Source of the DNA: a virus
IMG/VR virus record: IMGVR_UViG_3300044756_000004
Location: 1 to 50,098 of that record
DNA: 50,098 nucleotides
Reading direction: 5' to 3' (one strand)
This document shows, one piece after another, positions 2,992-17,857 of the stretch (position 1 is the stretch's first letter; the number at the start of each line of letters is the position of its first letter). The translations under genes and the position numbers were made by a program. The notes under the pieces were generated by a model. That model searched no databases, was not told where the DNA came from, and saw only the letters and a list, made by a program, of their open reading frames with translations.

Positions 2992-3132
2992 ATGAAGTGT
3001 GTTAAGAATACCCGTACTAACGAAATCATTCGTGTCAGTGATAACACCGCTATGTATATGGTGCAGCAACCTTCGCCTTGGGAGTATTGCCCGAAGTGGG
3101 AATGGAAGGCTCAAAGAGAGGCTTCCAAATGA
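2992..3132 (+). CDS. 46-aa conserved-type small phage protein
   Basis: ATG with GGAG 7-10 nt upstream. The sequence opens MKCVKNTRTNEIIRVSDN and ends with a WEYCPKWEWK-like segment. This architecture (short beta hairpin, then W-x-Y-C-P-K) occurs in small phage proteins of unknown function. ATGA overlap with the next gene. Role unknown. Confidence 0.7.
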   Translation: MKCVKNTRTNEIIRVSDNTAMYMVQQPSPWEYCPKWEWKAQREASK

Positions 3133-3553: not shown

Positions 3554-3703
3554 ATGATGGTGTGGTATTGCCCACTAGATGGGCTGGAATACCGCTGCCT
3601 GCTATTGGTGGGCTGGCGGGTAGTACATCGGCTTGATGTCGATGGTAAGCCGTGGGTCAAGATGGTGAAGGACAAGGAAGTATCCTTATCATGTCTGAAC
3701 TGA
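3554..3703 (+). CDS. 49-aa hypothetical protein
   Basis: Two consecutive ATGs follow a GGGGTG sequence. The product is Trp/Val-rich and looks like a compact beta domain (YRCLLLVGWRVVHRLDVDGK). It overlaps the next gene by 13 nt, consistent with the packing here. Unrecognised. Confidence 0.5.
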   Translation: MMVWYCPLDGLEYRCLLLVGWRVVHRLDVDGKPWVKMVKDKEVSLSCLN

Positions 3704-3876
3704 AGGAGATATGTGTTCAAGATGCTGTCAATCCTCCTTTAACAAGAAAGGAATTAAAAAGACTAGTCCGTGTACTTAAAAGTCTATGTCCTATCCATGC
3801 GATAGACACAGACTTGAAAGTAAACATCATCAAACGGGAAATCACCGTAGGCAATACCGTCTATTGGTGGGAATAA
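3691..3876 (+). CDS. 61-aa hypothetical protein
   Basis: ATG with AAGGAAG about 11 nt upstream. Sequence is Lys/Leu-rich: a probable helix at residues 15-32, then a beta hairpin ending in Trp-Trp-Glu. No family recognised; position suggests an early accessory gene. Confidence 0.6.
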   Translation: MSELKEICVQDAVNPPLTRKELKRLVRVLKSLCPIHAIDTDLKVNIIKREITVGNTVYWWE

Positions 3877-11041: not shown

Positions 11042-11205
11042 ACAACTATAACAACAGAGGCACTCTGCTGGACAGAGCAGCAAAAGCTATGTCAAATATT
11101 ACTGTCATCGGCGTGTGCTGCGCTGTGCTGGCAGCAATGGGTTATCTGGCAAGCCAGCACATCAACTGCGTTGACTTCTTTCAGAAGTTCTGTGTAATCC
11201 ACTGA
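11038..11205 (+). CDS. 55-aa single-pass membrane protein
   Basis: GTG start overlapping the previous TGA, with AAGGAAG upstream. Hydrophobic segment at residues about 20-38 (ITVIGVCCAVLAAMGYLA) with a basic N-terminus, then a short Cys-containing tail. Followed by a hairpin/terminator. Function unknown. Confidence 0.55.
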   Translation: MNNYNNRGTLLDRAAKAMSNITVIGVCCAVLAAMGYLASQHINCVDFFQKFCVIH

Positions 11206-13698: not shown

Positions 13699-14187
13699 TT
13701 GGCTTCAGAATTTATTGACGTTCAAGGCAAGGTGTCTTGGCTCCACGCGGTTGGATTTAATCGCTTCGACAAATGGAGCGTAACTCTTCACCCCGATACC
13801 CGTAGCCTTGAAGTCATTAGAGACTTACAGGCCCAAGGTATTAAGAACCAAATGAAGAAGGATGACGACGGATATTATATCCAGTTCTCCCGTGAGCCAA
13901 GTAAGCTCATGCGGGGTAAAGTTGTAGCCTTCGCAGCACCTAAGGTTGTCGATAAAGACGGTGTACCAATCGACGGTAGTAGAGTCGGTAACGGCTCAGA
14001 CGTCACTGTACGATTGGAGGTGTACCAGCACGGTACGCCTAACGGTGGGAAGGCTAAGGCAGCTAGGTTTGATAGCATCCGCATTGACAACCTTGTACCC
14101 TACCAACCTGATCGTGACCTTGGATCACAAGACGAGAAGGACGCAGTTAAATCACTAACTGAAGCTCCTGAACCATTGTTTAATTAG
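13699..14187 (+). CDS. Single-stranded DNA-binding protein (T7 gp2.5-like / DUF2815-type)
   Basis: Coats single-stranded DNA during replication and recombination. The sequence has the OB-fold pattern of podophage SSBs: V-x-G-K-V-S-W near the start, FDKWSVTLHPD, a DGYYIQFSRE strand, then P-x-V-x-D-x-x-G, IDGSRVGNGSDVTVRLEVY and a DSIRIDNLVPY end. The C-terminus is acidic and ends in Leu-Phe-Asn, reminiscent of the aromatic acidic tail used for partner contacts. TTG start directly after the previous stop with a GGAAA site. At 162 aa it is slightly short of gp2.5. Confidence 0.8.
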   Translation: MASEFIDVQGKVSWLHAVGFNRFDKWSVTLHPDTRSLEVIRDLQAQGIKNQMKKDDDGYYIQFSREPSKLMRGKVVAFAAPKVVDKDGVPIDGSRVGNGSDVTVRLEVYQHGTPNGGKAKAARFDSIRIDNLVPYQPDRDLGSQDEKDAVKSLTEAPEPLFN

Positions 14188-14224
14188 GTATTTGTTATTC
14201 CCTTTAGGAGGGAACCGCGCGTCC

Positions 14225-14323
14225 GTGAACGTTGACGGAGCAGAGGGTTTTAAACCAAACGCACCTCCTAATTCATTTTTCTGTCAGTGGTGTACGAAAC
14301 GTAGAAGACCCTGTAACACGTAG
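14225..14323 (+). CDS. Possible 32-aa Cys-containing peptide (weak)
   Basis: GTG frame after a strong but distant ribosome site (TTTAGGAGGGAA, 14202-14213). The C-terminus has C20-x2-C23 and a later Cys in a basic context, like half a zinc knuckle. It could be a real micro-protein or part of the 5' end of the structured RNA region. Confidence 0.3.
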   Translation: MNVDGAEGFKPNAPPNSFFCQWCTKRRRPCNT

Positions 14324-14331
14324 GGAGACTT

Positions 14332-14451
14332 ATGAGCCCCGGTGGGTTGTGGACCTGCCTGATGTTACTGTTCTGGAGCGTGCTCAGCACACCAATCCTA
14401 GTAGGACGTCTTAGGACGCTATCTGTAAGACAAAGTGAGCTACAGGTTTGA
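14332..14451 (+). CDS. Possible 39-aa membrane peptide (weak)
   Basis: ATG with GGGAG 6 nt upstream. Hydrophobic residues 6-25 then a basic tail. Several hairpins overlap this stretch (for example GTGCT/AGCAC, CGTC/GACG near 14408-14418), so it may instead belong to the non-coding RNA. Confidence 0.25.
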   Translation: MSPGGLWTCLMLLFWSVLSTPILVGRLRTLSVRQSELQV

Positions 14452-15926
14452 TCGAACGGATGGAGGAGCGGATTTACGACCCGTGTGACAGAAGAACTGT
14501 CCCTCGTAGTCCAAATACTTGAGGGATACCCCAGTGTGTAGGTGTGATCGTATCAGGTGCACATTGCAGCCGGAAGGTTAGCCGGACTCCCGTCGTGTTA
14601 CCCGATGGAGGCTAAAACAGGGAACACCAAGGTGTATATCGTTTCCTCTCCAGTGATATCTGGTTAAACATCAGCAAGCGGTTTAATAGTCCTACCCTAG
14701 AGTGGGTCCGTACGCAAAGGCGGAGGCCAACACCAACCAAGACTTAAGCTCTGGTAGACAGCAAAGACTAAAGAAGCAACGACCCCTTTGTTGGGTACAG
14801 CCCATCCTGAAGGAAGTTAGCTTCGATGTTATCTGCACATGTGAAACCTAGAATGAAGTGTACGCCAAAACTATAGCGGAATATGGCTTATGGCCGTGAC
14901 TTAAGCTCCGGTACGGTCCCCGTGATGATTAGTGTAATCGGCGAGTGCAGCTGCCCCGTGCATGGTTAAAGGTTAGCCAAAAACCAGCAGTAGTATGGAG
15001 GTTCAAATCTCCCATTCTTTGAATAGTCTGTGACGGACTAAGTAGCTCAGATAATGGAACCGAGCAGTACCGCTATGGTACTAAACGTACTCAAACCCAT
15101 TAAGCGCAAGATCGGCCCTGAACCGATCCTAGGCACTGGCTATGAACCATCAGTCCCATGTATACGCATGACCCCGAGGGGGTCCTAGACTACGCTCTGC
15201 GTTGACGAAGCTCTGGGCCAAGGCTGAAAAGGACTAGCAGGTTGGTCGCGAACACTCCGTAGCCTGTAACCCAACTCGGTGGTGAATCGAGGTCTTTGAC
15301 TAACGGGAAACCAATACGGAAAGGACAGACCGTCCGGATGTCTAACATCTGGTCACTCTGTTTATCTGAATCTGCACCACCTGTTTCGTGGCAGCAGACG
15401 CCCCTGCAAACCTGAATCAGGTTCATCTCAGGAAGAGCGTAATCTGAAGCAGGAAACGCCGCCTCTTTGGCCGAAAGGTTTTTAAAAAAGCGGAGAGCCC
15501 TGAAACAAACGACGACTACAAGTAGTTAGAGCAGGAACAAAACTGGCTCACACGAAGGTGTAGAAGTGATCAGCATCTCAGTCTCTGTATATGTACACTA
15601 TCTTACACAGTGGAAACCACGCAAGATATGCTCTGCGTAAATACAGCCGGGACCTGATCCGTACGAACGTAGATTGTGAGAAGGGTAATCAATCCCCTCA
15701 CGACGTCCTGAACCTCAACACTCCTTAAAATTCCAGCAGATTACTGGATAGAGAGGGAGTATCAACCGAACGGAGATCGGCAATGATGTTCAACGATGTA
15801 ACCCCCAGAAGAATAAGATGTTTAATAGACCATCGGCAACTTGGACAACCTCCTTAACAAAGAGGGGCGATAGTTAGCGATGGGGCCATGACTACCACGT
15901 GTCATATACCGTGGCGCTCTGGCCCC
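14452..15926 (+). ncRNA. Candidate giant structured non-coding RNA (about 1.5 kb)
   Basis: No credible ORF on either strand for about 1.5 kb, which is unique in this densely packed genome. Dozens of local stems are visible. Examples: GATCGG/CCGATC (15110-15128); GACCCC/GGGGTC (15170-15184), enclosed by CTAGG (15128-15132) and CCTAG (15184-15188); GTGAG-AA-GGG with CCC-CTCAC (15676-15701); CCAG/CTGG near 15733-15748. A terminal GGGGCC (15882-15887) with GGCCCC (15921-15926) encloses CCACG/CGTGG. GNRA loops GG-GAAA-CC (15305-15312) and CC-GAAA-GG (15471-15478) read correctly only on the plus strand. A 16-nt motif recurs at 14741 and 14898. Large phage RNAs such as GOLLD and ROOL are known, but I could not match this to either. 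Confidence 0.65.
14995..15015 (+). other. tRNA T-arm-like hairpin in the large RNA
   Basis: ATGGAG (14995-15000) pairs with CTCCCAT (15009-15015) with one bulged C, around the loop GTTCAAAT, which is the universal T-loop sequence. I could not assemble the rest of a tRNA around it: no matching acceptor strand or anticodon arm upstream. It is more likely a T-loop module of the structured RNA, or a tRNA remnant. Confidence 0.45.
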
Positions 15927-15958
15927 GCCCCCAACGCCCCCACAACCGGAGAAGTAAC

Positions 15959-16279
15959 ATGGCTAAGAATGGATCAGATTTGGTCGCAGTGTTGGAATAC
16001 CTCGACCGCAAGACAGCTTTCAAGCCGCCCAAGTCGGGCCGTAAGACTAGGAAGTTGGTTATCCCAGATGAATTCGATTTGATTTCCTACGTTCAGAAGA
16101 AGGAAGAAGAAGTCGAACGTTGGAAGAAGTATTTGAAGGACAAAGAGAAGTTGGAGAAGAAGGACACCAAACCAGAGTATAAGGGACCGAACCTGAAGTT
16201 CGTCGAATGGTACATCATTGGTATTCTCTCTTATCCTCTTGTCGGTCATATCTGGCAACTCGCAACAACAGTAAAGTAA
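15959..16279 (+). CDS. 106-aa C-terminally anchored membrane protein
   Basis: CGGAG 8 nt before the ATG. A basic N-terminus, then a long Lys/Glu-rich coiled coil (about residues 46-72), then a hydrophobic C-terminal segment (about 83-102). First gene after the large RNA and immediately upstream of the exonuclease. It could tether a complex to the membrane; unrecognised. Confidence 0.7.
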   Translation: MAKNGSDLVAVLEYLDRKTAFKPPKSGRKTRKLVIPDEFDLISYVQKKEEEVERWKKYLKDKEKLEKKDTKPEYKGPNLKFVEWYIIGILSYPLVGHIWQLATTVK

Positions 16280-16280
16280 A

Positions 16281-17144
16281 TTGGCTTCAATACACACACT
16301 AATCCCTGACATCTACAAACTCGTGGGGTCCGACAATGGCTGGCTCACCGATCTGGTCGCATCCGATATGGGTGACGACATTGCAAGCGCTCTCAAAGTT
16401 TCCTTCGGACCACAAGAGCCACGTGGTTTACGTCTCAGTGGCCTTGGCCCCTCCTGCCCTAAAGCTCTCTGGCATCGCATCCGTACCCCCGAGCTTGCAG
16501 AACCCCTTCCTCCATATGCCCGTATCAAATACTCCTATGGACACATCATCGAGCACCTCGTTATCGGTCTCGCGAAAGCCGCAGGACATGAAGTAACAGG
16601 AGAGCAAGATGAAATCTCTGTTGATGGAGTCACCGGCCACAGGGACTGCGTTATTGATGGTTGCATCGTTGATGTCAAATCTTCTTCTTCCTTTGGCCTT
16701 CAGAAGCTCAAAGACAAAACTATTGCACAAGATGATAATTTTGGGTATCTGGATCAACTTGACGGGTATCTTGTGGGGTCAATGGATGACCCTCTGGTCC
16801 GTACTAAGGACCGGGCCTATCTCTTGGCTGTAGACAAAACCCTTGGACACATGGTGTTATATGAACACATCCTCAGAGAACAATCTATTAGGGAACGAAT
16901 ATCTGCTTACAAGCAAGTTGTTCGATCAGATCAACCACCTCGATGCGAATGCGGGATTGTCCCTGACGGAAAAAGTGGCAATCTTAAGCTCGATACAAAA
17001 GCTAGTTACAGTGCTTTTCGCCACGTATGCCATCCGGGCCTGCGGACGTTTCTTTACGCGTCAGGACCCGTCTACTTAACCAAGGTGGTTCGCCCACCTG
17101 CTCCATATATAATTGAGTTAAAGCAATGGAACAATTTACAATAA
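16281..17144 (+). CDS. PD-(D/E)XK exonuclease (RecB/Cas4-like)
   Basis: Probably degrades host DNA or processes concatemers and recombination ends, the role of gp6 in T7. Visible motifs: SCPKALWHR (C59), EHLVIG with a conserved Glu at about 91, GHRDCVIDG with D122/D126, and the catalytic IVDVKSSS (D131-x-K133), followed by a Y-x-x-Q-L-D-G-Y helix typical of RecB-family motif IV. Extra cysteines near the C-terminus (CECG and HVC) plus C59 could form an Fe-S or zinc site as in Cas4/AddB-like nucleases. TTG start one base after the preceding stop. 287 aa. Confidence 0.8.
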   Translation: MASIHTLIPDIYKLVGSDNGWLTDLVASDMGDDIASALKVSFGPQEPRGLRLSGLGPSCPKALWHRIRTPELAEPLPPYARIKYSYGHIIEHLVIGLAKAAGHEVTGEQDEISVDGVTGHRDCVIDGCIVDVKSSSSFGLQKLKDKTIAQDDNFGYLDQLDGYLVGSMDDPLVRTKDRAYLLAVDKTLGHMVLYEHILREQSIRERISAYKQVVRSDQPPRCECGIVPDGKSGNLKLDTKASYSAFRHVCHPGLRTFLYASGPVYLTKVVRPPAPYIIELKQWNNLQ

Positions 17145-17365: not shown

Positions 17366-17526
17366 TGGAAAAATGGAAGAAGAATGCTTGGCGGTCCGTC
17401 TGGACTCAACGTCGAGATGAATTAGTCAGAGCATGTGCTCGCTACCCGGACTCCGATAGGTATCCGACACGGCAGATCGAACTTCAGGAGTTGAACGCAA
17501 AGCTTGAAGACCTCGACAAGGAATAG
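17362..17526 (+). CDS. 54-aa helical protein
   Basis: Starts at ATGATGG overlapping the preceding TGA. Trp/Arg-rich N-terminus and a long helix ending in LEDLDKE. Overlaps the endonuclease VII start by 23 nt. Unrecognised. Confidence 0.55.
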   Translation: MMEKWKKNAWRSVWTQRRDELVRACARYPDSDRYPTRQIELQELNAKLEDLDKE

Positions 17527-17857
17527 ATATCTCCTTAAGAAATTTGGGATAACAGAGGAACAGTATGATGAGCTTTTCAGGAAACAAGGCGGACGCTGCG
17601 CAGTATGTAAACGATTATCTTCTAGCTTCAAAACCCGGCTCGCTGTCGATCACGATCACCGATCAGGACACATCAGGGGGTTGCTGTGTATACATTGCAA
17701 CCGATATGTCGTCGGACGACATCGTAAAGATGTTGGGTCAAGCTTGCTTAGAGCGGCTTACGAGTACTTAGAAGCAGAATACCCCGGATGGATAGTACCA
17801 CCGAAGAAGAGGAAAAGACATGGTAGGAAAAGATTACGACGAGTTCGACATACGTGA
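17504..17857 (+). CDS. Endonuclease VII-like Holliday junction resolvase
   Basis: Resolves branched DNA before packaging. Classic recombination endonuclease VII pattern: two Cys pairs (C32-x2-C35 and C62-x2-C65) bind structural zinc and flank the catalytic VDHDH (D49-H52), followed by HIRGLLC and CNRYVVGRHRKD. The N-terminal RNRYLLKKFGITEEQYDEL helix is also typical. A strongly basic tail (residues 100-115) extends it. TTG is the only reasonable start. 117 aa, slightly shorter than the T4 enzyme, which has an extra dimer domain. Confidence 0.93.
   Translation: MKTSTRNRYLLKKFGITEEQYDELFRKQGGRCAVCKRLSSSFKTRLAVDHDHRSGHIRGLLCIHCNRYVVGRHRKDVGSSLLRAAYEYLEAEYPGWIVPPKKRKRHGRKRLRRVRHT

Follow-up and report, generated by a model that had tools for sequence, protein, structure and literature searches.

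The phage genome analyzed here, a 50,098-base virus record (IMG/VR IMGVR_UViG_3300044756_000004, positions 1 to 50,098; hereafter the window), almost certainly encodes a kilobase-scale structured RNA between its genes for a single-stranded DNA-binding protein (SSB) and an exonuclease. At the level of sequence, comparison of relatives establishes a non-coding structured region, tRNA T-arms, selection on a leader peptide ending in Pro-Pro-stop, and a fixed gene order. We give a probability of about one half to the reading that the RNA, the leader and a small protein constitute a three-part unit with arrest-based gating. An earlier note on this DNA had proposed a large structured phage RNA; our analysis supports that proposal, mainly on evidence other than that cited there.

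Results

The interval between the SSB and exonuclease genes is non-coding

The window encodes a DNA primase/helicase, a family A DNA polymerase, a Gp2.5-like SSB (13699–14187, plus strand; PHROG 112, E = 3e-7) and, downstream, a Cas4-domain exonuclease (16281–17144, plus strand; PHROG 1990, E = 3.5e-21). Just 3' of the exonuclease gene, a 117-aa ORF (17504–17857, plus strand) resembles, by eye, a recombination endonuclease VII of the HNH type. The closest cultured relatives by protein are distant, with best exonuclease matches of 40–42%, including Zobellviridae (Roseobacter phage CRP-4), and the annotation of three records (CRP-4, Sinorhizobium phage phiM6 and phage T5S1) contained no comparable stretch in the SSB-exonuclease interval. 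A blastn search of the window against 50,697 phage records returned no relevant match, and a GTDB genome scan for the host gave one match, a distant one in a Dependentiae MAG contig. By our own reading, rather than a record-by-record look-up, the habitat of this family of uncultured viruses would be soil.

All homologues compared below are IMG/VR contigs. Scans with the exonuclease and polymerase yielded 134 loci besides the window's own; more than 1 kb lay between the SSB and exonuclease genes (or the contig end) in 70 of the 79 non-redundant loci, 67 of them complete. A long ORF-poor stretch is found at the same place in about 70 related contigs, the longer intervals of which may contain inserted genes. 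Two close relatives of the window do carry extra ORFs of 177–180 aa between the SSB gene and the RNA (L001, 4452–4985; L003, 3990–4532). Where relatives had such further ORFs, the RNA stayed adjacent to the leader ORF and the gene after it.

In the window, the stretch occupies 14188–15782 on the plus strand, its 1,595 nt being counted from the SSB stop to the start of the leader ORF and not between measured RNA ends; across the family the RNA is about 1.1–1.6 kb. Substitutions between the window and L001, its nearest relative, were spread evenly over the three codon positions (75/74/76), and most of the 25 gaps were not multiples of three. The neighboring genes had a clear third-position bias in the same comparison (SSB, 20/14/70; exonuclease, 22/11/39; 106-aa gene, 6/7/23). 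No ORF of plausible gene length crosses 14188–15782; the longest frame left open there has 111 codons, and shuffled sequence gives 113 on average. All 640 similarity matches among the intervals were on the plus strand. By these comparisons the stretch is non-coding. The even substitutions and the shuffle-level frame bear out the earlier note's description of about 1.5 kb without a credible ORF, and the frame-shifted protein in relatives that it had named as counting against an RNA did not appear. Its start at 14452 needs correcting, as the stretch begins directly after the SSB stop, and it had overlooked a short credible ORF with a Shine-Dalgarno site near the 3' end (15783–15857).

Distant relatives (polymerase <47%) have SSB-exonuclease intervals of only ∼85–840 bases, with ordinary tRNA or small genes, and the RNA-leader-protein unit was not found in the six whose shorter intervals were read. 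An ordinary tRNA gene sits at the giant RNA's place in L131 (10911–10982) and L121 (10822–10894). It is possible that such a tRNA was the evolutionary source of the giant-RNA locus; judged from these two contigs, derivation from a tRNA gene is a reasonable guess, not a result. Three other distant relatives (L125, L127 and L134) have small protein genes in the interval, one resembling dCTP deaminase by eye, and the locus is possibly a hot spot for insertions.

Compensatory changes point to a structured RNA

We compared the folding of the stretch with that of shuffled sequences. The single-sequence energy of 14452–15440 on the plus strand was at chance level against dinucleotide shuffles (z = 0.12), with z = −2.1 for the minus strand and −1.9 for a coding control. 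Because the window folds no better than its shuffles, the stems listed in the earlier note are not evidence by themselves: they and their loops can be read in the sequence, but not above chance. Comparative folding gave a different picture. Compensatory pairs were 2–4 times more numerous than in refolded shuffles in three clades: 106 versus 25.9 ± 3.7 in clade A (7 sequences), 153 versus 60.3 ± 7.8 in clade B (5 sequences) and 131 versus 66.5 ± 6.8 in the window's clade (4 sequences). Covarying pairs, which the note had suggested looking for, are thus abundant. The same count was at chance for the polymerase, exonuclease and SSB genes of clade A and for the polymerase gene of clade B. Folding energy does not discriminate, as the clade A polymerase gene reached a z of about −5; the number of compensated pairs does.

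Counts on fixed structures were made for two cores. In the clade A core, 44 of 98 pairs were compensated (shuffled, 19.6 ± 2.7; slid, 3–12), and in the window core (14768–15138), 34 of 88 (shuffled, 16.3 ± 2.6; slid, 4–7); both exceeded 500 of 500 shuffles. These structures come from the same alignments and are biased in their own favor over slid versions, a bias that the refolded shuffles do not have. Taken together, the stretch 14188–15782 is almost certainly a structured RNA by its pattern of covariation.

The plus and minus strands folded about equally well in the comparative analysis, as helices would, so the strand was assigned from loops. GNRA loops, reported earlier as readable on the plus strand only, gave four hairpins on the plus and none on the minus strand against 1.1 per shuffle, a weak asymmetry. 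Among the stems named in the note, the nested CTAGG/CCTAG with GACCCC/GGGGTC and the GTGAG..CTCAC stem were identical in L001 and missing in both L059 and L003. The only named stem retained beyond the closest relative is the terminal GGGGCC/GGCCCC hairpin, which L059 and L003 have in altered sequence.

Several parts of the window's RNA could be delineated on the plus strand from four sequences (the window, L001, L059 and L003). A hairpin domain at 14773–14824 stacks three helices (14773–14780/14816–14824, 14785–14790/14808–14813 and 14792–14796/14800–14804), with seven pairs changed on both sides; L003 disrupts part of the outer helix. The complementary 8-mers GTTATCTG (14828–14835) and CAGATAAT (15048–15055) would close a domain at 14828–15055, a helix without covariation support because both are invariant in the four sequences. 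Inside it, a tRNA-like junction (14850–15018) is closed by AGAATG (14850–14855) with CATTCT (15013–15018), six pairs in which every cell is paired and four pairs are changed on both sides. Its enlarged first arm, at the D-arm position (14863–14943), has eight pairs changed on both sides in two helices. The second arm, at the anticodon-arm position (14945–14996), has nine pairs, every cell paired and four changed on both sides. A T-arm-like hairpin follows (GGAG-GTTCAAAT-CTCC, 14997–15012), departing from a standard T-arm by its 8-base loop; L001 has a GTGG/CCAC stem with the loop kept. CATTCT lies directly 3' of it, like the acceptor strand in tRNA. The D-arm-like TAGCTCAGATAATGGAA (15043–15060) has a core, CTCAGATAATGGAA, that is invariant in the four sequences; its CAGATAAT serves the closing helix of the larger domain, and the local D-stem GCTC/GAGC is found in the window only. 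The hairpin AGTACC/GGTACT (15066–15082), five of whose six pairs are changed on both sides, corresponds to GATGG/CCATC in L059 and GACAC/GTGTC in L003. Between the leader ORF and the next gene, a GC-rich hairpin (15882–15926) is replaced in L059 and L003 by a shorter one of different sequence, and GC-rich hairpins occupy this position in many loci.

tRNA mimicry is built into the RNA

We searched for a T-arm pattern, defined as a five-pair hairpin with a TTCRANN loop closed by G-C. In 165 kb of interval there were 91 such hairpins on the plus strand and none on the minus strand, against 12 in 842 kb of flanks; control loops gave nothing comparable. In relatives, we also observed 12 unique circularly permuted tRNA-like modules, all 12 on the plus strand, in the order T-arm, acceptor-position hairpin with a mostly short loop, and tRNA-Leu-like D-arm (TGGCGNAA..GGNANACGC). 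The acceptor hairpins vary in sequence between phages with pairing kept. tRNA-like elements, which the earlier note placed next to some RNAs of this kind, are present, but inside the RNA and not beside it.

The modules of the 12 relatives resemble YrlA RNA (RF02553), a circularly permuted tRNA mimic (PMC11472068); for the window's module, the better fold is a non-permuted junction with tRNA-like acceptor geometry and enlarged arms. YrlA is also about 110 nt long, against more than 1 kb for the giant phage RNA. The YrlA model picked the permuted module in some relatives; at E ≤ 1 it matched 14 of 57 records, each below the gathering cut-off of 69 bits (best 29.4 bits, in L103's record), and it gave no match in the window. 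No TROVE domain (Ro60/Rsr) was found in the 47 phage records that the search covered; a Ro60 supplied by the host is conceivable. The module also recalls two-piece (permuted) tmRNA, where the T-arm and the 3' strand of the acceptor come ahead of the acceptor's 5' strand and the D-arm. It differs in that its acceptor strands are linked by a short loop without CCA and there was no tmRNA match; the phage short ORF begins at a start codon of its own, with a separate Shine-Dalgarno site.

ARAGORN detected no tRNA in the window or in 44 long intervals (first set of loci), and the tRNA covariance model had no match in the window. With relaxed thresholds ARAGORN gave candidates that were mostly noise, both strands alike. 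In L095, a tRNA-model match of 34.1 bits (11065–11160) lies inside the giant-RNA interval. As a DNA pattern on IMG/VR contigs, the permuted module is not specific, since among the matches listed most were ordinary neighboring tRNA genes. A few of those listed had paired acceptor strands (e.g., L173 and L246) and lay in contigs with YrlA-like RNAs. These YrlA-like RNAs, below the Rfam cut-off and in unrelated phage contigs, map to 2993–3101 (minus strand) of L173 and 3655–3779 (plus strand) of L246, the latter within a tRNA array; both contigs also hold separate permuted-module matches.

A leader ORF ending in Pro-Pro-stop precedes a small protein gene

Directly after the non-coding stretch, a leader ORF of 24 codons (15783–15857, plus strand) with an upstream Shine-Dalgarno GGAG encodes MMFNDVTPRRIRCLIDHRQLGQPP-stop. 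Of the 67 complete loci, 64 have a short ORF that is preceded by a Shine-Dalgarno site and terminates in Pro-Pro-stop closely upstream of the next gene, and the three exceptions carry one under looser criteria. The same test was positive for 4 of 1,220 other ORF starts and for none of the 67 loci on the minus strand. We had spotted the motif before designing the controls; the contrast is far larger than that could yield. All four proline codons are used at the first proline, TAA serves as the stop codon of 63 among the 64 ORFs, and the residue before the prolines is mostly R (29) or Q (24). We considered CCTCCTTAA as a copy of the 16S rRNA 3' end, a reading ruled out by the variation of codons within the Pro-Pro-stop frame. 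By this conservation the peptide is under selection, and the leader is very likely translated.

Ribosomes probably stall at the Pro-Pro-stop on termination, by analogy with TnaC, in which arrest occurs at Pro24-stop (PMC8429421) and a short ORF ending in proline-stop likewise lies upstream of a gene, there a regulated one. The phage leader differs in having two prolines, an otherwise variable peptide and a position 3' of a giant RNA, and its arrest is putative. Known arrest peptides such as TnaC require further residues, whereas the phage peptides share little beyond [R/Q]PP-stop outside close relatives, which weakens the arrest reading. We slightly favor the idea that arrest at the leader regulates the next gene.

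The gene that follows the leader ORF at short distance is always of one family. In the window this gene encodes a small charged protein of 106 aa (15959–16279, plus strand), a proposed partner of the RNA whose family is present in most loci. The family is divergent (51 of 64 members linked by BLASTP), and none of the six members searched matched a Pfam or PHROGs family. The proteins are charged in the middle, and 48 of 64 have a C-terminal hydrophobic segment that passes the threshold, compared with 74 of 390 control ORFs. The segment in the window's protein falls below it (best 19-residue mean, 1.18).

The RNA matches no known class

A search of all 4,227 Rfam families gave no GOLLD, ROOL or OLE match in the window, at gathering or at E ≤ 10, and none at gathering in 12 relatives. 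No Rfam family reached its cut-off in the window or in the relatives' intervals, the outcome of a check that the note had proposed. A direct ROOL search of four records had no match, but its controls were likewise undetected. The openly accessible literature, which excludes most subscription journals, yielded no account of an RNA like this one.

GOLLD and ROOL are large, many-hairpin phage RNAs with a link to tRNA (PMC12286853). The present RNA is similarly very large, ornate, phage-encoded and tRNA-linked, as the note had thought; with no model match to either, it is neither GOLLD nor ROOL. It is longer, its tRNA-like arms are internal, and a leader ORF and a protein gene are fixed at its 3' side. 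The note's view that it is larger than known classes holds: the stretch exceeds OLE (∼600 nt), the 574-position ROOL model and the size stated for many GOLLD RNAs (800+ nt). Its placement between SSB and exonuclease is likewise right, but the unit also includes the conserved leader ORF and the small protein gene. OLE RNA, the evident parallel as to function, has the membrane-protein gene oapA downstream (PMC12265935); the phage RNA is likewise large and structured, and the small protein encoded right after the RNA and its leader may be a membrane protein. There was no OLE model match, however, and OLE is found in Gram-positive bacteria, the giant RNA in phage. OapA has four predicted transmembrane helices against at most one C-terminal segment in the phage partner, whose binding to the RNA is suggested by analogy.

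Discussion

In the reading that we put at about one half, the unit comprises a kilobase-scale structured RNA, whose many hairpins include tRNA-like junctions and T-arms as in tRNA; the leader peptide encoded at the 3' end of this RNA, constant only in [R/Q]-Pro-Pro-stop; and a small protein that is charged in its middle part and in most cases has a hydrophobic C-terminal segment. The RNA would be co-transcribed with the replication genes, as one RNA, and then fold to serve as a scaffold. A ribosome arrested at Pro-Pro-stop would gate the partner protein, perhaps the exonuclease too, and would park next to the tRNA-like RNA. The partner might bind the RNA to form a phage RNP held at the membrane, in the manner of OapA and OLE RNA; we hold such an RNA-protein partnership only tentatively. 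The weak hydrophobic segment of the window's own partner and the lack of a match to a sigma-70-type promoter in 14000–16300 count against the gated unit. The unit need not act as one, as the leader may serve the next gene alone. Its fullest form would be a new kind of phage RNP, in which a kilobase RNA with several tRNA-like arms is tethered to a ribosome arrested on the RNA's own leader, is anchored at the membrane by a dedicated protein and acts on translation or replication in the course of infection; this we consider unlikely.

The best-surviving alternative, to which we give perhaps one chance in four, is an ornate trans-acting RNA of the GOLLD/ROOL kind, a self-assembling cage or scaffold cut from the operon transcript, with the leader regulating only the next gene. 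Size, many hairpins, phage origin and tRNA link are similar (PMC12286853), and the GC-rich hairpins 3' of the leader ORF might mark where the transcript is processed. Against this reading, the searches by sequence and by covariance model matched neither GOLLD nor ROOL, and the RNA sits between replication genes. A giant cis-acting 5' leader, controlling the 106-aa protein and the exonuclease by, for example, sensing tRNA or the translation state, is improbable too: it fits the constant position of the leader ORF shortly before one gene family, but more than 1 kb of structure far exceeds known leaders. It keeps some probability from those relatives in which further ORFs follow the SSB gene and the RNA stays beside the leader ORF and the gene after it. 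For the giant RNA itself, a free trans-acting particle and a giant cis leader may equally apply. An array of ordinary tRNA genes that has decayed or is unusual in form would explain the recurring T-arms, the normal tRNA in the same interval of distant relatives and the L095 match, but ARAGORN found none in the 44 intervals scanned, the acceptor strands pair in permuted order and the covarying helices far exceed what T-arms account for, making it highly implausible. Despite the location inside the replication gene block, frameshift-hidden coding sequence can be practically dismissed from the codon-position-neutral substitutions and frame-breaking indels, and a replication origin or other structured DNA element from the T-arm strand asymmetry of 91 to 0.

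To our knowledge, very few bacterial or phage RNAs of such size and complexity exist in the record, and their functions are mostly obscure. The giant RNA adds about 70 diverse homologues, statistically strong covariation and built-in tRNA mimicry. It also brings two genetic handles not known for GOLLD or ROOL, the near-universal Pro-Pro-stop leader and the adjacent small protein gene, and together these features open its function to experiment. If the proposed unit is real, as a ribosome- or membrane-bound RNP, it would extend the ways in which phages use RNA during infection.
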